Part shown: positions 40,901 to 50,186 of the stretch, in pieces
How the letters are laid out: every line of letters starts with the position of its first letter
Numbering within the stretch: position 1 is the stretch's first letter
The notes under the pieces: generated by a model
Told to the model about the DNA's origin: nothing
Databases searched by the model: none
Seen by the model: only the letters and a program-made list of their open reading frames with translations
NCBI GenBank assembly: GCA_026014735.1
Contig: JAOZHT010000001.1
Coordinates: 62,001-126,000 of the forward strand
Direction: 5' to 3'
Source: Candidatus Bathyarchaeota archaeon
GTDB taxonomy: Archaea > Thermoproteota > Bathyarchaeia > Bathyarchaeales > Bathycorpusculaceae
Length of the DNA stretch: 64,000 bases
Made by a program: the position numbers and the translations under genes

Positions 40901-41239
40901 CTAAAGTTTTAGCCAGAGCAGAATGCCCATAATTAAACCGTAAATTGCCAACGCTTCAGCCAACGCTACGATGAGGAAGCTTCTGAAGAAGGTTTCAGGT
41001 TTCTCAGCTAATGCACTGATTGCAGCACTGCCAGCCGCGGAGATTGCAAGACCCGCACTCAAAGCGGGAAGACTAATGGCTAATGCAGCGGAGATGGCGA
41101 TTGCGACGCGGTCATAGTTTGCAGCATTTGCAGTGGTTGTTTGGTCCTGAACTGTGGAGACTGTTACTGCGGCTGCCATGCCCATGAGTGGTAGGAGCAC
41201 GAGCGGAAGTAACACGAACAGTATTAGTTTTCGTTTCAC
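40901..41239 (-). CDS. atpK: A-type ATP synthase subunit K (c-ring proteolipid)
   Basis: 112 residues from GTG 41239, placed 7 bases after GGAGTGA; a TTG at 41272 would lie upstream of that site. An N-terminal hydrophobic stretch (5-24) ending MGMAAA may be a cleaved signal, followed by one hairpin of two membrane helices (about 43-76 and 84-111). The ion-binding carboxylate is E95 in ALAEALAIYG. The sodium-type glutamine of the first helix is not evident, so protons are the likelier coupling ion. Last gene of the minus-strand synthase operon. Confidence 0.88.
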   Translation of the reverse strand: MKRKLILFVLLPLVLLPLMGMAAAVTVSTVQDQTTTANAANYDRVAIAISAALAISLPALSAGLAISAAGSAAISALAEKPETFFRSFLIVALAEALAIYGLIMGILLWLKL

Positions 41240-41319
41240 GTTGATGTCACTCCAATGGGTATGATTGCACAATAAGCTTAGCTATTAACTTTTTCTTGTT
41301 TTAACATATCTTCCCTTGA

Positions 41320-41475
41320 TTAAGAAGCGAATTCAAAAGCCTCGCCGATTTCAGCAGCTTTGTCTTTGAGGGCATTGAGGTCTTGGCGGATTTTCTCGAT
41401 TTCAGCTTGGCAGGCGTCTTCGATGGATTTAAGGAAACGCTGGTAATCAGCTTCAAGCTTTTCTGAAGTCGGCAT
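41320..41475 (-). CDS. 51-residue coiled-coil protein within the ATP synthase operon
   Basis: ATG with GAGGTAG 8 bases upstream, 11 bases after the UspA stop. The 51 residues begin MPTSEKLEADYQRF and continue as one long charged amphipathic helix (KSIEDACQAEIEKIRQDLNA, LKDKAAEIGEAF). Strong start signals and heptad pattern argue for a real gene. Its place between UspA and subunit K suggests an accessory or stalk-associated factor of the synthase; I know no family name for it. Confidence 0.7.
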   Translation of the reverse strand: MPTSEKLEADYQRFLKSIEDACQAEIEKIRQDLNALKDKAAEIGEAFEFAS

Positions 41476-41486
41476 CTTACCTACCT

Positions 41487-41933
41487 CTACTTGACCACCA
41501 GCACAGGGCAGGATGAATACTCGATGACGCGTTCAGCAACGCTGCCCATCAGTATCCGCTCGGCGCCCCTATACCCGTAGGTGCCCATAACGATGAGGTC
41601 CATGTTTAGGCCCTTAGCTAAATTCACGATCTGCTCAAAGGGTCTGCCCCGTGCAACCATAGCGGTAGCCTTCACGCCGGCTTCTGTTGCTAACCCCAAA
41701 ACGTAGTTTGTGTAGCGTTGCCCATCGATCTTGAGTTCCCGCTCGACCACCTCGCGTTCGGTGATCTCTGAGAATTTATCGATGACAACCTCATCCACCA
41801 CGTAGACAACCATAAGTTGGGCATCGTGGTTTTTTGCGATGCCTATGGCGTATTCAGCCGCGCGGATGCTGTGTTCAGAGCCGTCGGTTGGAACCAGTAT
41901 CTTCTCGATTGTTTCCGAACTAAACCTCTTCAT
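41487..41933 (-). CDS. Universal stress protein (UspA family)
   Basis: 148 residues: KILVPTDGSEHSIRAAEYAI at the start and the ATP-binding signature GTYGYRGAERILMGSVAERV near the end (G-x2-G-x6-GS form), then CPVLVV. Probably binds ATP. Its ATG lies inside the end of the subunit D gene (14-base overlap), so it is translated with the synthase genes. Usp genes inside an ATP synthase operon are unusual and hint at energy-state regulation. Confidence 0.93.
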   Translation of the reverse strand: MKRFSSETIEKILVPTDGSEHSIRAAEYAIGIAKNHDAQLMVVYVVDEVVIDKFSEITEREVVERELKIDGQRYTNYVLGLATEAGVKATAMVARGRPFEQIVNLAKGLNMDLIVMGTYGYRGAERILMGSVAERVIEYSSCPVLVVK

Positions 41934-42573
41934 TTAAAATCTCCTCTTGATGACTTTGAATCATGGTTTTGATGCGTTTAGTACGCACGAATTCCTCGCG
42001 TTCCTTCTCCTCCAGAACCATTTCGATCTGCTTTGCTGTGCTGCGGTAACGGGGAATCAAAACGTGGTTGAGGGCGTTGACGCGGCGCTGGGTTCGTTTG
42101 ACGTCGTTGGCTATCTGAAAGGTTGTTCCTTCTGCTTTAGCTAAATGCGCCAGCAGCTTTAAGACGTTATGGAACTCCTTAAACGCGTGGTCTAACTCGG
42201 CGTTGGTGTTGGCAAAGCCATAGTCGGGTTTAACGTCGGTTGCTCCCTGAAAGGTAACGGCTGGAACCGTCACGCCCATGATGCTGCGGTAATCAATCAG
42301 GTACTCGGCTTTGTTAGTGGATCCCAGCGCCACGTTAGCGATGGTTTCCGAGCCCTTCGCCATAATCGCCTCCCGCAGACTCAAGTAAGCCTTCGCCAGC
42401 GCCTCCAACAGGTCCTCGCGGCTTTTCTCCGCGTCAAAGATGCTGTTACGCAGCTCCCGAAGCAGAATATCCCGTTTACGCTCCAGCACTTCCCGTCCGG
42501 ACTCTGCTAGACTCAGGGTCTTTTTGGTCTGTATGAGGTTGATTCTGGTGGGGCTGATGTTTTCCGCCGACAT
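41920..42573 (-). CDS. atpD: A-type ATP synthase subunit D (central rotor stalk)
   Basis: 217 residues. Long N- and C-terminal helices with the family start SPTRINLIQTKKTLSLAESG..LLERKRD-like segment and the RRVNALNHVLIPR motif in the C-terminal helix. It forms the rotating shaft inside the A3B3 head. Ends with a short EEILNEEV tail. Start 2 bases after the subunit B stop. Confidence 0.95.
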   Translation of the reverse strand: MSAENISPTRINLIQTKKTLSLAESGREVLERKRDILLRELRNSIFDAEKSREDLLEALAKAYLSLREAIMAKGSETIANVALGSTNKAEYLIDYRSIMGVTVPAVTFQGATDVKPDYGFANTNAELDHAFKEFHNVLKLLAHLAKAEGTTFQIANDVKRTQRRVNALNHVLIPRYRSTAKQIEMVLEEKEREEFVRTKRIKTMIQSHQEEILNEEV

Positions 42574-42575
42574 AC

Positions 42576-43976
42576 CTAGTACTTAACCTCAACGTCGGTT
42601 TTGGGCATGTACTTGTTGATGTACTCGGGTTTGACGCTGGTTAATTCTTCCTCAGGCAAATCAGAAAGCACATCCCATGCAATCGATAGGGTTTCTTCGA
42701 TGCTGCGGTTCTCGTTTTTGCCTTGCTTGATGAGGGTTTTCTCGAAGTGCTCGCCGAAGCGAAGGTACTCTTTGTCTCGGGTGCCAAGGCCTTCTTCGCC
42801 TATGATTGTGACCAGTGACTTAACCGAGTTGTATTGGGCATATGCACTGTAGAGTTGGCTGGCGACGTTTGCGTGGTCTTCTCGGGTGCTGCCGGCGCCG
42901 ATGCCGTCCTTCATCAGCCGGCTAAGGCTGGTTGAGATGTAGATGGGCGGGTAGATGCCCTGCTTTTCGAGTGAGCGGGAAAGCACGATTTGTCCCTCGG
43001 TGATGTAGCCGGTTAAGTCGGGGATGGGGTGGGTGATGTCGTCGTTGGGCATGGTTAGAATGGGCATCTGCGTAATCGAGCCGCGTTTGCCGATGATTCT
43101 GCCTGCGCGTTCATAGATGCTGGCGAGGTCACTGTACATGTAGCCGGGGTAGCCTTTGCGGCTGGGCACCTCCTCCATCGATGAGCTGACTTCACGCAGC
43201 GCCTCACAATAATTAGTCATATCCGTCATGACAACGAGTACGTGGCTTTCCTGATCAAACGCCAGATACTCCGCCAACGTCAAACCCGCGCGGGGAGTGA
43301 TGATGCGCTCCACAGGGGGGTCATCTGCCAAATTAAGGAACATGGCGACGTTTTTGATGGCGCCGGTTTCCTCAAAGCTCTTCTGGAAAAACGCTGCGTC
43401 ATCATGCTCAAGTCCCATGGCGATGAAGACGATGTTGAAGGGTTCGTTTGCGCTGCGGATTTGGGCTTGCCTAACAACCTGTGCGGCGAGTTCATTGTGG
43501 CTTAAGCCGGGGCCGCTGAAAACGGGGAGTTTTTGCCCGCGGACGAGGCTGGTTAAGCCGTCGATGGCGGATATGCCGGTTTGGATGAAGTCTTTGGGGT
43601 ATTCGCGTGCGTTGGGGTTAAGGGGGAAGCCGTTGACGTCGCGTTTTTCTTCGGTGAAGAAGCGGGGGTGGCCGTCGATGGGTTCGCCGAAGCTGTTCAT
43701 GACGCGTCCCAGCATCTCGGTGGAAACGGGCACTTCAAGGGGCCTGCCTAAAAAGCGGGTGCGGGTCTGCGACAGCGAGAGCCCAGTGGTGCCTTCGAAA
43801 ACCTGCACGGTGACGGCTTTCTGGGTAACCTGGATAACTTTGCCAAGGCGGGTTTCGCCGCTTTGGGTTTTCACTGCAACAAGCTCGTCGTAGCCTACTT
43901 GCTTGACGTTTTCGACGACGATGATGGGTCCTGAGATTGATGAGACACCTTTATACTCTAAACCTGTTCCTGCCAT
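42576..43976 (-). CDS. atpB: A-type ATP synthase subunit B (regulatory)
   Basis: 466 residues. Typical [17 protein letters not shown] start, [20 protein letters not shown] in place of a P-loop (so non-catalytic nucleotide site), FVIFIAMG-like core and the SYLSDLAxIYERAGR-type segment ([14 protein letters not shown]). Alternates with subunit A in the hexamer. Five bases after the A stop in the operon. Confidence 0.96.
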
Positions 43977-43981
43977 AGCGA

Positions 43982-45751
43982 TTACCTCAAACTTGCCTCC
44001 AATACCTCAAAATTCTCATGCATACGCTTCTCTAAATCATCCAGCGCCCCAACTTTATCGTTAGGTATGGAAGATTTCATGCGCATGATTTCATCCATTA
44101 CTGGAAGCTCGGTGACTTTGAAAATTGGTGCACCCTTGGTAACGACGTCCTCGGCTAGCCGATGGAAATCCACGATTATCTTCAACATCATGAATTGCTT
44201 CTGTGGGCTGCAGTAGGTGTCGATGGGGTCAAGCGCGTTCTGCTGAAGCATGGCGATGCGCAGGATGCGGGCGGTCTCCAGTACCAGCCGCTGCTTATCA
44301 GGCAACGCCTCGGGGCCAACTAGCTTAACGATGTTTTTAAGTTCATCTTCCGCCTGCAATATACGCATGGCTTCTTCGCGGTAGCTGTTCCATTTCTCGT
44401 TGACGTTTTTATGCCACCAGCCTGCAAGATCAGCGACGTAGCCGCTGTAACTCTGCATCCAGTTAATCGAGGGGTAATGGCGTGCATCCGCAAGCTCCGC
44501 ATCCAGCGCCCAGAAAACCCTTGTGAATCGTTTAGTATGTTGGGTGACGGGTTCGGAGAAGTCGCCGCCAGGAGGAGAAACCGCGCCGATGGCGCAGATG
44601 GAGCCCATTCGCTGGTCTGAGCCTAGGGTTTCGACGACGCCGGTGCGTTCGTAGAACTCGGCTAGTCGCGAGGGCAGATAGCTGGGGAAGCCTTCTTCAG
44701 CGGGCATCTCTTCGAGTCTGCCTGAGACTTCGCGGAGTGCCTCGGCCCATCTGCTGGTTGAATCCGCCATCAACGCGACTGCGTAGCCCATGTCACGGTA
44801 GTATTCGGCGATGGCTATGCCAGTGTAGATGCTGGCTTCACGCGCGGAAACGGGCATGTTGCTGGTGTTCGCGATTAGGATGGTGCGTTCCATCAGGGGA
44901 TGCCCCGTGACGGGGTCGATGAGTTTGGGGAAGCTATCGAGGACATCGACCATTTCGTTGCCGCGTTCACCGCAGCCCACGTAGATGACGATGTTGGCGT
45001 CTGACCACTTCGCCAGCTGCTGCTGAGTGACGGTTTTGCCCGCGCCGAAGGGTCCAGGGATAGCTGCGGAGCCGCCTTTAGCGATGGGGAAAAACGTGTC
45101 GATGACCCGCTGCCCCGTGATAAGCGGTGTGAAGGCGAAGAGGCGTTTGCTGTGGGGGCGGGGTTTGCGGACAGGCCACTTCTGCATCATTGTAAGCTCA
45201 GTTTGGGCGCCGTTGGCTTCCAGCGTGGCGATGCTTTCGGCGACTGTGTATTCGCCTTCAGCTGCGATTTTGAGGATTTTGCCTTGTGTACCGATGGGGG
45301 CAAGGATACGGTGCTCGACTATGTCGGTTTCTTGGACTGTGCCCAGTATGTCGCCGCCCACGACTTCGTCGCCGACTTTGACTTTGGGTGTGAACAGCCA
45401 TTTTTTGGTTCGGGAAAGCGCGGTTACTCCCCGGGCTTGCTTGATGAAGGCGCCGGTTATTTCCCGTAGCGTCTCAAGTGGACGCTGGATGCCATCGAAG
45501 GTGTTTCCCAAAAGGCCTGGTCCAAGCTCTACTGAAAGCGGGCTGCCTGTGCCGGTTGCGGGTTCTTCGAGTTTAAGGCCGGTGGTGTTTTGGTAAACTT
45601 GGATGGTTGCGTATTCGCCTTCGAGGCGGATGATTTCGCCGATTAAGCCTTCGTTGCCTACTTCGACCATCTCGTGCATGACGGCGTCTGACATGCCTTT
45701 GGCTTCGACGACGGGGCCTGCAACTCGGATAACGCTGCCTTTCGCGGTCAT
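43982..45751 (-). CDS. atpA: A-type ATP synthase subunit A (catalytic)
   Basis: 589 residues from ATG 45751, with GGAG upstream and one base after the subunit E stop; a longer reading from 45781 would add ten unconserved residues. Contains [12 protein letters not shown] start, the non-homologous bulge domain, Walker A GPFGAGKT, Walker B-type [17 protein letters not shown] and the [17 protein letters not shown] stretch. Hydrolyses or makes ATP in the A3B3 head. No intein is present. Confidence 0.96.
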
Positions 45752-45752
45752 A

Positions 45753-46370
45753 TTATGCAGCTCCGAAGAGTTGTTTTGCAACCGCCACTCGCAGCGCCGA
45801 TGTTAACTCGGCAAGTTTGTTGTCGAGTGTGGCGTCGTAGATTATTTTGCCGTCGCTGGTTTGGATTTTGCAGCCGCCGATGAAGTCTTCTTTTTCATTG
45901 GATAATTCAAGTTCACTGCCTATTTTCCCAGATATAGTTTTGAGCATGTCTGATGTTAACCAACCTTTGTCCTTTACGTTAACTTGAACTACAAGTTTTT
46001 TCTGCCCCATCCGCTGTGCGACAGCTTCTATTAGCCCTAAAAGGTAGCTGCTGTAGTTTTTGCTTTGAGCAAACTCTTTGAGTGCGGCGGTGGCTTTCTC
46101 GAAGGCTGCATCCACCAGTTGCTCTTTGGTTTGAAGCAACCGGTTGCGGGCTTCCACCTCTGCCACGGAGGCGATTTTGCGTTTCTCCACGTCCGCTTTC
46201 TCCTTTGCCTGGGCTACGGCGGCGCGGTAGCTCTCCCGGGCTTTATCGTTGGCTATTCGCAGGGTTTCTTTAGCTTCGGTTTGAGCTGCCAAAATCAGGG
46301 CTTCAGCTTCCTTTTGCACGTCGCCTATGACTTCGCTGGCGATTGCTGCAATTCCAGTTTTTACGCTCAT
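45753..46370 (-). CDS. atpE: A-type ATP synthase subunit E (peripheral stalk)
   Basis: 205 residues. Long charged N-terminal coiled coil (about 1-95, KEAEALILAAQTEAKETLR) and a C-terminal globular part ending IIYDATLDNKLAELTSALRV, as in the family. It forms the outer stalk with subunit H. Confidence 0.93.
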   Translation of the reverse strand: MSVKTGIAAIASEVIGDVQKEAEALILAAQTEAKETLRIANDKARESYRAAVAQAKEKADVEKRKIASVAEVEARNRLLQTKEQLVDAAFEKATAALKEFAQSKNYSSYLLGLIEAVAQRMGQKKLVVQVNVKDKGWLTSDMLKTISGKIGSELELSNEKEDFIGGCKIQTSDGKIIYDATLDNKLAELTSALRVAVAKQLFGAA

Positions 46371-46382
46371 GGGGTAGTCTCT

Positions 46383-46691
46383 CTACATTTTTATGCCTAA
46401 GATTTTGCCGATGGTATCCGACAGCTTCACGGTGTTCTTTGCGCCTTTGCTGCCGGGTAACTCTACAATCAAAGGGGTCACGCGTTCCTGCCGCACCCTA
46501 TCCACCTGTGCCTGTATAGCAGGCTCCAGGGCGAAGGCTTCGCTGAGGATAATTATGGCTACGTCACTGCGTTCCAGAGCCTGGTTTAAGGCGCGGATGG
46601 CTTCCTCAACCGAATTTGCCTCTGCCCCCTCGACGCCGACCAAGCGGAAGCCCGCAAGCATGTCACTGTCGCCTATTACGTAGCCAATCAT
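46383..46691 (-). CDS. atpF: A-type ATP synthase subunit F
   Basis: 102 residues: IGYVIGDSDMLAGFRLVGVEG start and DVAIIILSEAFA core are characteristic. Caps the lower end of the rotor stalk. ATG with AGGTGAC upstream. It is the first gene of the minus-strand block that contains E, A, B, D, UspA, the 51-residue gene and K, and starts only 56 bases from the divergent subunit I gene. Confidence 0.93.
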   Translation of the reverse strand: MIGYVIGDSDMLAGFRLVGVEGAEANSVEEAIRALNQALERSDVAIIILSEAFALEPAIQAQVDRVRQERVTPLIVELPGSKGAKNTVKLSDTIGKILGIKM

Positions 46692-46747
46692 GCCGTCACC
46701 TAATATAACTTTAAATGCTTGTTGGTAAGTTCAAAATACTGTTAAAA
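46692..46747. promoter_or_regulatory. Short bidirectional promoter between subunits F and I
   Basis: TAATATAACTTTAAA (46701-46715) is TATA-like on both strands. On the plus strand it lies about 40 bases before the ATG of subunit I at 46748; on the minus strand about 15-20 bases before the subunit F start. The two units would thus share one compact control region. Confidence 0.45.
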
Positions 46748-48796
46748 ATGTTGCGACCCGAAAGAATGACTTCGACATCCATTATATGTATAAAAAAAGA
46801 TGTTGAGTCCATCCTTGAAAAGTTAAGCGCATTTGGCGAGTTCCATATTGAGCCGTCGGCAAGTGATGAGGCAAGTCTGGGAGAATACAACCAGAGTATC
46901 CAAACCGTCGAGGAACGTCTGCTGGATGTCAAGGCGTTAACGGGTCAGATTGTTAAGGAAAAAACGGGTTTACTTGATTTATTTAAGGTAAAGCAGCCCA
47001 CGACTGTGGATGTGACAGCGGACAACTGGAGAAGCCTTCTTGAAGACACAAGCAAAAGCATACTGACGCTGAAAAAGGAAATCGCGGGCTTAAATGCTTC
47101 GCTGGAGAGTCTCAAAGGAAAAGCCGCTGAGCTAGTCCAGCTAAGAGACATGCTTGCTACGATGAATGAAATCGGCGTGGACCTTGCCAGCATCAACAAA
47201 TTCAAGCTGCTTCACGTTGACATGGTTAGATTGCCCGAAAAGAACCTGGAATCGTTTGAAACCGCCATCGACCAGCTGCCGCTGGAACTGCATAAGTGCT
47301 CGATGGTCGGCGACTTTATGTTTATACTCATCGCCATGCCCGCTAAGCACCGTGATGAAGTAGAAAAAATTCTTCATACCTACCATGCTGAAGTTTTCGT
47401 TTTGCCCTCTGAGCTTCCACCCGACGCAGGCGAAGCCCTCAAGTTGGTTAAGGCGCGTTTGCAAAGCAACTCGGAGGAGCAAAAGGAGCTTCAGGGCAGA
47501 CTGGATAAGCTGGGTGAAGAAAACAAGGGAAACCTCGCTGCGTGGACGGAGAGTAGCGAGAACATTTTGGAGCTGCTTAACGCAGAGAAAAAGATTCTGC
47601 AGTCAGGCAGGCTTGCCACCATCAAGGGCTTTGTTTCCCAGAAGAAGTATCCTGAACTCAAGCAAACCGTGCATGGGATGCTCAACGACCGAGTGCTGTT
47701 GCTGCCGGAGGGTTCAATGGAAGATGAGGAGGCGGCGCCGTCCAAGTTTAGGCATGGCCGCTTAGTGAGGCCCTTTGAAGAAATCACCAAGCTCTATGGC
47801 GTCCCCAAATACAACGAAGTTGATCCCACCCCGCTTATCGCCATCACTTTCCCAATTATCTTCGGGTTAATGTTTGCAGATTTCGGGCAGGGACTGGTGC
47901 TGTTTATCGGCGGCTTAACAGTGGGTATGCTAATTAAGAGCAATCAGGGCATGAAAAACACCTGTTTCATCGTTGCTGTCTGCGGTATAGGCGCTATGGC
48001 TGCGGGTTTAGTGTTCGGTGAATGCTTCGGCAGAGAACTTATCCCTGCTCTCTGGTTTAGTCCAGTGCCCCATGTGGCGGGCGGTGCAGAAGCGTTAGCG
48101 CATGCATCCACCACCGTGTTTAACTTCTTGATATTCGCGTTGATGGTGGGGGTTGTTCAGATCATTAGCGGCTTAATCATTGAAGGCGCCAACTTTGCCC
48201 TCAAGCACCAATACATCGATACCTTCCTTACGTCTGCGCCTAAAATCGGGTTCTACATCGGCGGCATCTGGCTCATCGCCACCTACCAGCTTGACTTCGC
48301 CGCTTGGCTTGCCGGACCCATTCTTGCCCCCATAATACCCTTCGCCATCTTGGTTGCGGGTAAACCTCTTTACTTGATGATAGCTAAACCCAAAGTAGCC
48401 CATGCAAGCGAGCATGCGGAAAGCGACACTTTCGTGGGCAGACTCTTTGAGGGCGGAGACTTCTTCACCAGTCTGCTTAGCAACACAATCTCTTATAGCC
48501 GTATTTTGGCGTTGCTGATGGCGCATTGGGCGCTGCTGCTGGTCACCTACACGGTTGCAGAGTTGATTGCGCCTGCGGGTTCAGGCATACTGGGCGTGGT
48601 ATTGGCGGGTGTCATCGTGGTTTTCGGCAACATCGCCGTTATGGCGTTGGAGGGCTTAATCGTGTTTATCCATACGCTTAGGCTGCACTTCTATGAGTGG
48701 TTCAGCAAATTCTATGGGGGCACAGGCGTCGAGTTTAAGGCGTTTAAGCAGAAATTCGTCTATACCAAGCTGACTTTCAAGAAAGAGAAGACTTAG
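46748..48796 (+). CDS. atpI: A-type ATP synthase subunit I (a-subunit, ion channel)
   Basis: 682 residues from ATG 46748, chosen because it begins MLRPERM as most archaeal homologues do; an ATG at 46715 would add 11 residues. The N-terminal half (to about 355) is soluble with coiled coils. The C-terminal half has about seven membrane segments, with PTPL..FPIIFGLMFADFGQGLVLF, SNTISYSRILALLMAHWALL (arginine of the ion path) and FIHTLRLHFYEWFSKFYGG. It is on the plus strand whereas all other synthase subunits are on the minus strand, and it ends tail to tail with subunit C, overlapping by 4 bases. Confidence 0.95.
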   Translation: MLRPERMTSTSIICIKKDVESILEKLSAFGEFHIEPSASDEASLGEYNQSIQTVEERLLDVKALTGQIVKEKTGLLDLFKVKQPTTVDVTADNWRSLLEDTSKSILTLKKEIAGLNASLESLKGKAAELVQLRDMLATMNEIGVDLASINKFKLLHVDMVRLPEKNLESFETAIDQLPLELHKCSMVGDFMFILIAMPAKHRDEVEKILHTYHAEVFVLPSELPPDAGEALKLVKARLQSNSEEQKELQGRLDKLGEENKGNLAAWTESSENILELLNAEKKILQSGRLATIKGFVSQKKYPELKQTVHGMLNDRVLLLPEGSMEDEEAAPSKFRHGRLVRPFEEITKLYGVPKYNEVDPTPLIAITFPIIFGLMFADFGQGLVLFIGGLTVGMLIKSNQGMKNTCFIVAVCGIGAMAAGLVFGECFGRELIPALWFSPVPHVAGGAEALAHASTTVFNFLIFALMVGVVQIISGLIIEGANFALKHQYIDTFLTSAPKIGFYIGGIWLIATYQLDFAAWLAGPILAPIIPFAILVAGKPLYLMIAKPKVAHASEHAESDTFVGRLFEGGDFFTSLLSNTISYSRILALLMAHWALLLVTYTVAELIAPAGSGILGVVLAGVIVVFGNIAVMALEGLIVFIHTLRLHFYEWFSKFYGGTGVEFKAFKQKFVYTKLTFKKEKT

Positions 48797-49845
48797 AATA
48801 GAAGCTGATTGCGGATGAGGTCAGGCTGCAATTCGCCGTCGATGCCCAACGCCACTGCACGCAGGTTATAGACTTCTGCTTCTTTTTGGGTGATAAACGC
48901 CAGCGGCATACCAATGTTAAAGGTGGTGGTTATGGTGCCGCTTTTAGCGTTTTTCAGTCTGGCTTCTTTGAAGGCACGCTCGGCGGCTGCCAGGATAACT
49001 TCGGGGGTGCCTTCCCTGCTGAAATATTCGCTGTAGCGGCTTGCAAGGGCAACCTTGTATGCTGCCTCAAAGTTCTGCGCGGAAAGGATAGCTTCTGCGA
49101 TGCTGCGGGTGAGGTTGAAGTAGTTTTGGGGTATGGCTAGGCGTAGCCAGTTGGAGTCGTAGTTGAGGTTTTTTGCGCGCAGCAGCGAAATCAGGATGTA
49201 GCCGTCGTTTTCGATGCTTGCGTAGATGTGTGCATGCGATTTTTCTCTGCGGGGCAGCTTCTGGTAGGCTTGGTAGAGGTGCTCGTAATAGAAGGCGTCG
49301 AGGAACACGTCAAGGCAGGTGGTTGAGCCGTTTTGGTTGTAGCTTTCCAGCCCCGAAGAAAGCGGAGCATAATAGGGGGTTTTCATGAAGCTATGCACCA
49401 GCGCAACCATCGTGGAGGCTTTAGCGGCTTCCTCAAAAACTAGGTACTTTTTGATGTGACAGGGCACAAAGGGGTAGAGCTTGGCGAGTTTCTGCTCCGC
49501 TGAAAGCTTGGCGACGGTGGCTTTCACCAGCAACTTGACATTCTCCACCTCAAAACGCAGCAGATACAGCTGCAGATAGTCGGTGGCGGCTTTGGGGGAG
49601 TACTTGATGATTTTTTTGTAGAGTTCAATTAGGTTCTCGTTGAATGCGCGTTCCAGTTTGCGTCCTGTGAATGGAGGCGTGATTTTGCTGATTTGCTCCT
49701 GGTAGGGTGTGTCGCGGAGCTGTGAGGCGAAGTCAGCGAGGTTTTTGCTGTCCGCCAAAATTTTGATTTTGGAGTCGGTGAGTAAATCGCCACGTTGCGC
49801 CCCAATTTTGGCAAGGACCGATGCGTAGCGGGTTGTCTGGGTCAG
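48793..49845 (-). CDS. atpC: A-type ATP synthase subunit C, probable non-AUG start
   Basis: Subunit C family helices are evident (LPRREKSHAHIYASIEND, SRYSEYFSREGTPEVILAAA). The first ATG/GTG/TTG in frame (TTG 49758) has no ribosome site and would remove the conserved N-terminus. The frame is open further upstream, encoding LTQTTRYASVLAKIGAQRGD and LLTDSKIKI, as expected for this family. The likely start is CTG at 49845, 6 bases after AGAGGA and 2 bases after the subunit H stop, giving 350 residues, the usual length; ATA at 49851 is the other option. Confidence 0.85.
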   Translation of the reverse strand: MTQTTRYASVLAKIGAQRGDLLTDSKIKILADSKNLADFASQLRDTPYQEQISKITPPFTGRKLERAFNENLIELYKKIIKYSPKAATDYLQLYLLRFEVENVKLLVKATVAKLSAEQKLAKLYPFVPCHIKKYLVFEEAAKASTMVALVHSFMKTPYYAPLSSGLESYNQNGSTTCLDVFLDAFYYEHLYQAYQKLPRREKSHAHIYASIENDGYILISLLRAKNLNYDSNWLRLAIPQNYFNLTRSIAEAILSAQNFEAAYKVALASRYSEYFSREGTPEVILAAAERAFKEARLKNAKSGTITTTFNIGMPLAFITQKEAEVYNLRAVALGIDGELQPDLIRNQLLF

Positions 49846-49847
49846 AT

Positions 49848-50159
49848 TTATTCCTCTAAAACCGCTTTAACAATCAAGGAAACAGCGCTGTCCATGCGCT
49901 GCATCGCTTGGGCTTTGAGTTCGGCGGCTTTCTGCTCGTTGGCATCCAGCAACTCGGCTCTGTGCTGGTTGGCTTCCGATACGGCTTTGCCGTAGATTTT
50001 AGCGGCTTCTTCTTCACCGTAGGCTTTGCTGTTAGCCATTAACTTGTCGGATTCCTGCTTTGATAGTAACGTGATGTTTTTTGCCCTCTCTTTGGCTTCA
50101 GACTGGATCTGCTCAGCCTGCGCTTCGATCTTTTTAAGTTCATCCCAAACCTTCTGCAT
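49848..50159 (-). CDS. atpH: A-type ATP synthase subunit H (peripheral stalk)
   Basis: 103 residues from ATG 50159 (GGTG site 9-10 bases upstream); an ATG at 50174 would add five residues. One long right-handed-coiled-coil type helix rich in K, E, A (IEAQAEQIQSEAKERAKNI), then a shorter second part ending SAVSLIVKAVLEE. Pairs with subunit E. First gene of the H-C transcript. Confidence 0.88.
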   Translation of the reverse strand: MQKVWDELKKIEAQAEQIQSEAKERAKNITLLSKQESDKLMANSKAYGEEEAAKIYGKAVSEANQHRAELLDANEQKAAELKAQAMQRMDSAVSLIVKAVLEE

Positions 50160-50186
50160 CGCTAACCACACCACATACCCTATAGC

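Follow-up and report, generated by a model that had tools for sequence, protein, structure and literature searches.

A small helical protein encoded between atpD and atpK, a probable accessory part of the A-type ATP synthase in Bathyarchaeia

Results and discussion

The A-type ATP synthase operon of a Candidatus Bathyarchaeota genome contains two genes between those for the central-stalk subunit D (atpD) and the c/K proteolipid (atpK): a universal stress protein gene (usp) and a small gene for a protein of 51 amino acids. The small gene is a real, conserved gene. We lean towards reading its product as a small single-helix accessory subunit of the synthase, encoded in the slot of the epsilon subunit, with the Usp as an inserted, probable modulator. 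A tiny helical gene shares this slot in many related archaea, some of them Sulfolobus-like, and the small gene probably codes for an accessory part of the enzyme that has been overlooked. All coordinates refer to the window, i.e., the whole stretch of 64,000 nucleotides that was analyzed.

Organization of the operon

On the minus strand the gene order is F-E-A-B-D-usp-small gene-K, with the genes for subunits H and C farther upstream on the same strand. Subunits F (46383..46691), E (45753..46370), and A (43982..45781) have Pfam matches, as do atpD (41920..42573; E = 3.3e-52) and atpK (40901..41239; E = 1.9e-14), the latter with a probable GTG start at 41239 and a longest open reading frame (ORF) reaching 41272; subunit B lies at 42576..43976. 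Subunit I (46715..48796, Pfam match) is on the plus strand, inverted between F and C (48793..49758, with an open frame that extends farther upstream). A gene for a putative stator subunit H (49848..50174) adjoins C and has a weak match to TIGR02926, below the cut-off. As an earlier note on this DNA had described, usp (41487..41933, minus strand) overlaps atpD by 14 bases, and the small gene (41320..41475, minus strand) follows usp after 11 bases with its own ribosome site (AGAGGT before the ATG); the coordinates and the sequence agree with this description. The inversion of subunit I relative to F-E-A-B-D is also seen in 16 other loci of the genus, and in one genome (G025, L060) the genes for C and H are on the opposite strand, past atpK. 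A scan with a subunit D alignment returned 15 loci, including those of named Candidatus Bathycorpusculum genomes and two Thermotogaceae.

Conservation and predicted structure of the small protein

The 51-amino-acid protein has no Pfam match near a curated cut-off, and a direct search of the named genomes with this sequence alone gave no match; graded matches were obtained in a protein search of 61 related genomes. A first profile of the small protein matched 15 of 256 genomes of the class, of which 13 belong to the window's genus and two, from another genus, match only in part. It missed three homologues in f9, another family of the same order as the window genome, which were noticed when the loci around the f9 subunit D genes were read. 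Widened with these three sequences, the profile matched 16 of the 256 genomes (13 of the genus plus G177, G178, and G190 of f9), the f9 homologues being recovered by construction. The genus and f9 protein families are clearly related in a profile comparison (probability 93.5, score 36.8; reversed controls 15.1 and 17.8), and in all 16 carriers (13 genus genomes including the window's, and three of f9) the homologue lies between usp and atpK.

It is hardly credible that the small ORF is a spurious or non-functional frame in the gap between atpD and atpK. It is short and is missing from 4 of the 17 synthase-bearing genomes of the genus, but homologues hold the same slot in 16 genomes; their presence there in 12 other genus genomes and three f9 genomes shows that the ORF is not due to chance. 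Against a spurious frame, too, purifying selection is indicated by a pN below pS in all 78 genus pairs (means 0.46 and 0.77, respectively), although the margin is narrow in the closest pair (G028/G015; pN 0.25, pS 0.30). The earlier note had made its proposal hinge on conservation in relatives, where both usp and the small gene are indeed kept in the synthase operon; far from being absent from all relatives with this operon, the small gene is found in 13 of the 17 genomes of the genus in which subunit B is present.

Helical periodicity of the small family likewise argues against a spurious ORF. In the averaged hydrophobicity profile the periodicity is strongest at 99.5 degrees per residue, and 5 of 2000 shuffles reach this peak; a finer scanning step was used for the real profile than for the shuffles, which biases the test slightly in its favor. 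Taken singly, 10 of the 13 genus proteins are periodic at p < 0.05. For the 51-amino-acid protein, AlphaFold2 predicts one helix spanning residues 3-50 (mean pLDDT 93.3, pTM 0.58), in line with the helix proposed earlier; by eye, hydrophobic positions recur along it from L7 to F47 with one stutter.

Several other matches were rejected. The G014 match lies in a 142-amino-acid frame that is not near synthase genes within the 13 kb read. Partial matches in other genera, spanning 25-27 residues within longer frames (E = 2.7e-4 to 9.2e-4), were regarded as coiled-coil noise; these occurred in two genomes in the first class scan (223-amino-acid frames, other genus) and in seven in another scan. Matches of the small family to PDB sequences over about 20 residues, to bicaudal D homologues (3e-4, 0.0015) and GpsB, are short coiled-coil resemblances judged to be coincidence.

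The slot after atpD in related archaea

Subunit D matches are present in 307 of 398 genomes of the phylum. We surveyed 76 atpD loci, of which 74 were picked for family spread from the best matches listed and two were added (G035 of the same family and G048 of the same order as the window genome); the sample leans to subunits D resembling the window's. A charged, proline-poor ORF of 36-63 amino acids, here called a slot ORF, is present in 51 of the 76 loci and in 15 of 30 family codes. In 48 loci it was picked out by a rule and starts between -50 and +38 nt from the atpD stop; in the three f9 loci it follows usp and was added by hand. Since the rule was set after the data had been viewed, the real control is the contrast with other gene ends: by this rule a slot ORF follows 46 of 73 atpD ends, whereas other long ORFs of those stretches have one at 1 of 335 ends (Fisher p = 2e-40). 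Where a K-like ORF was recognized within 1.3 kb downstream, a slot ORF is present in 36 of 39 loci, compared with 15 of 37 otherwise; among the three misses, one ORF enters an assembly gap and one is just under the charge cut-off by hand count. Helical periodicity reaches p < 0.05 in 50 of the 51 slot ORFs.

By the rule, 25 of the 76 loci have no slot ORF. It is missing from all five Bathyarchaeia loci outside the genus and f9 (G035, G048, G074, G091, and G210), from every surveyed locus of f46, f49, and f51, and from some loci of f50, f30, f35, and f69 whose relatives have one. One locus without a slot ORF (L208) has just 303 bases downstream of atpD. In two f35 loci (L157:9404-9819 and L158:7400-8022) the slot ORF is separated from the K-like ORF by two further ORFs, one of which encodes 66-67 amino acids with, by eye, two likely membrane helices.

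The earlier note had regarded both the Usp and the small protein as non-standard in archaeal synthases. This stands for the Usp, which the operon profile detects in the fetched stretch of 3 of the 76 surveyed loci, all of f9, and which is a lineage-specific insertion, a local addition. It is not supported for the small protein, in that a small charged helical ORF is common after atpD in the surveyed loci of the phylum and, in family f42, matches PF08112. Within the portions of open-licence papers on archaeal ATP synthase operons that were covered, no description of a Usp or of a slot ORF was found; in an excerpt on Thermoproteus tenax, the legend of a gene-cluster figure lists an unnamed 'hypothetical protein' (PMC3189178).

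Comparison with the epsilon subunit

PF08112, 'ATP synthase epsilon subunit', matches all three f42 slot ORFs that were scanned, out of four (1.9e-27, 2.2e-7, and 1.3e-4; the weakest match falls short of the curated cut-off, and the other two exceed it). Based on these matches, f42 is taken as Sulfolobales-like. In a control search PF08112 had matches in 6 of 14 well-known genomes, including that of Sulfolobus acidocaldarius, and exceeded the cut-off in one. We take the operon order of S. acidocaldarius to be delta-alpha-beta-gamma-epsilon-c. A PDB search with one f42 slot ORF yielded just apolipoprotein-like and other helices (E of 0.024 and above), which were set aside.

Like epsilon, the window protein has its gene between those for subunit D and the c ring, has a charged helical sequence, and is of similar length (51 amino acids versus 47-53 in f42). 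The f42 genes start a few bases from the atpD stop, whereas in the window lineage the Usp is inserted ahead of the small gene, and the window protein has no detectable sequence homology to epsilon. Searching the window genome with PF08112 did not find the small gene, its sole match being elsewhere, within a 658-amino-acid frame (E = 0.575); none of the 13 genus proteins match at E <= 0.1, nor did 17 other ORFs after atpD (one, G372, below the charge cut-off) at the thresholds used. The window family scores 12.5 against f42 in a profile comparison, versus 13.7 and 14.9 for reversed controls.

Across 55 pairs of groups, slot-ORF profiles have a median score of 16.9 versus 15.4 for 110 reversed controls, and 5.5% of pairs versus 0.9% of reversed controls reach 25 or more. 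With pooled leave-out profiles, real sequences outscore reversed ones in 51 of 64 cases, at low scores; the share is 11 of 13 in the window genus and 1 of 4 in f42. This signal hints at either a distant relationship or a shared helix make-up. Given that homology to epsilon was not found and that the five other Bathyarchaeia loci have no such ORF, we call the window protein a positional and physical counterpart of epsilon and not a member of its family.

Distribution and loss within the genus

Of the 32 genus genomes, 17 have subunit B, 14 the operon usp, and 13 the small gene. All 14 usp carriers have subunit B, so that the operon usp orthologue is found only beside the synthase; a 15th genome (G018) matches only with a Usp of 38% identity. 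The synthase-bearing genomes without the small gene are G001, which has usp only, G019 and G020, which have neither gene, and G026. In G026 (L064:9301-9996) a gene named by eye as SAICAR-synthetase-like fills the slot between atpD and atpK, with neither usp nor the small gene.

We constructed a quick tree from subunits A, B, D, and E, in which the four non-carriers form one clade (SH-aLRT 100) nested among carriers, with support of 97 and 91 at the next forks outward; one change suffices for the small gene, and the deepest fork within the genus stays open on this tree. Both usp and the small gene are found in the f9 relatives, which makes loss the simpler explanation, with the small gene going first and usp afterwards. 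If so, the synthase can persist without either gene, and both look accessory since one clade lost them and yet keeps the enzyme.

Subunit B has no match in 15 of the 32 genus genomes. Ten of these are among the 23 high-quality genomes, which points to a real absence of the synthase. An excerpt of PMC7886697 reports synthase absence in termite Bathyarchaeia, with incomplete assembly thought most likely. Window subunit D is 46-49% identical to that of f9 (L152-L154) and about 25% to that of G035 (L066), a member of its own family, which suggests horizontal transfer of the operon, judging by sequence identity; Bathyarchaeota are also misplaced in an ATPase tree, according to part of PMC6863869.

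The universal stress protein

The window Usp has a Usp domain (PF00582, E = 3.3e-33) and carries the motif GTYGYRGAERILMGS. The pattern G-2x-G-9x-G-[S/T], which we take to be the ATP-binding motif of Usp proteins, is intact in 15 of 17 operon copies, the window's among them; in L057 it is interrupted by an assembly gap, and L053 is without it. Operon copies in the genus are 58-80% identical to the window's, while the five other Usp matches listed are 33-42% identical. Five PDB sequences match the window Usp at E <= 1e-10, including 1wjg (probable ATP-binding protein), MJ0577 (1mjh), and TeaD (3hgm). Like TeaD of Halomonas elongata, the window Usp is a predicted ATP-binding Usp encoded beside the genes of a membrane machine; unlike TeaD, which acts on the TRAP transporter TeaABC and, in an excerpt of PMC9006882, modulates its activity, its regulatory role would be by analogy.

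The small protein could also be a partner or adaptor of the Usp, its helix tethering this ATP-binding protein to the synthase and the two together acting as a lineage-specific energy sensor. We consider this possible though doubtful. In its favor, usp is directly upstream in all 16 carriers, the pattern in the non-carrier clade is as expected if the small gene was lost before usp, and the Usp keeps its ATP-binding motif, with TeaD and MJ0577 among its nearest solved relatives. However, at 48 surveyed loci from outside the class atpD is followed by a comparable ORF, with no Usp in the stretch that was fetched (homology of these ORFs to the window's is unproven), and G001 has usp without the small gene.

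Proposed role

Mitochondrial IF1 and alphaproteobacterial zeta are small helical regulators of rotary ATPases, and the earlier note had likened the small protein to them. The likeness extends to a small helical protein; the window protein has no sequence match to either and belongs with a different ATPase class. An inhibitor of hydrolysis of this type, whose helix would enter the A3B3 interface when ATP or the membrane gradient falls, is unlikely. The predicted single amphipathic helix would be of the right size, and the small gene is missing from a clade that keeps the synthase, but neither an IF1 nor a zeta family is among the Pfam matches at E <= 1 (HMMER filters apply), so the comparison found no backing there.

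The note's other suggestion, a stalk partner, could be understood as a relative of subunit H/G that serves as a second, or shortened, stator helix and pairs with E. The small protein resembles subunit H/G (TIGR02926) as a small charged helical operon protein, and no clear subunit H homologue is reported for neutrophilic ammonia oxidizers in an excerpt of PMC6863869. The f29 loci with a slot ORF may, as an assumption, belong to these organisms. However, the window has a separate H-like gene of 108 amino acids beside C, and the small protein is barely closer to H than reversed controls (profile score 15.6 versus 14.1 and 14.2), with a comparable result for E (14.0 versus 13.5 and 13.1). It thus has neither a distinct similarity to the H profile nor the place of a sole H gene, and a stator identity is distinctly improbable.

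We favor an accessory subunit in the epsilon slot, a role supported by the fixed position, conservation, and predicted amphipathic helix of the small protein and by its absence from one synthase-keeping clade. The protein would be made just downstream of central-stalk D, filling the slot of the Sulfolobus-type 'epsilon' chain, and its helix may pack against the A1 sector, close to D and the A3B3 ring. There it would tune assembly or restrain ATP hydrolysis and not build the core. The Usp would sense ATP and is probably an ATP-binding modulator of the synthase, as TeaD is of its transporter. Some Bathyarchaeia may reverse the ATP synthase to build membrane potential, as suggested in a part of PMC7886697, in which case control of hydrolysis would matter.

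More tentatively, a single-helix subunit after D may be general across much of Thermoproteota and mostly unrecognized, with Sulfolobus epsilon as the sole named case, and Bathycorpusculum may add an ATP-binding Usp as energy-sensing control. Should the ORF after atpD prove to encode a real subunit, the current subunit picture of many lineages lacks this protein, whose role, whether in assembly, as a clamp, or as a brake on hydrolysis, can be tested in cultured archaea such as Sulfolobus. The excerpt of PMC6863869 counts nine subunits for the V-type-like enzyme and just eight identified for the A-type of neutrophilic ammonia oxidizers. The Usp insertion would be a candidate case of a Usp acting on ATP synthase.

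A promoter-like element before atpK

The sequence AAAA-[AG]-[GC]-TTAATA, which we take to resemble an archaeal BRE/TATA element, occurs about 45-60 bases upstream of atpK in 16 of the 17 genus loci, with a variant in the 17th, and is present also in the four loci without the small gene. In the window (AGAAAAAGTTAATAGC, 41281..41296, minus strand) it is the best matrix match on either strand, the matrix having been built partly from that site. Since the putative element separates the small gene from atpK, the latter may be transcribed alone, and the small gene would then belong with the atpD side of the operon. Judging from this motif, the c-ring gene can probably be transcribed separately, and usp and the small gene probably depend on promoters farther upstream. 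An element private to atpK may allow extra c subunit to be made for the ring.
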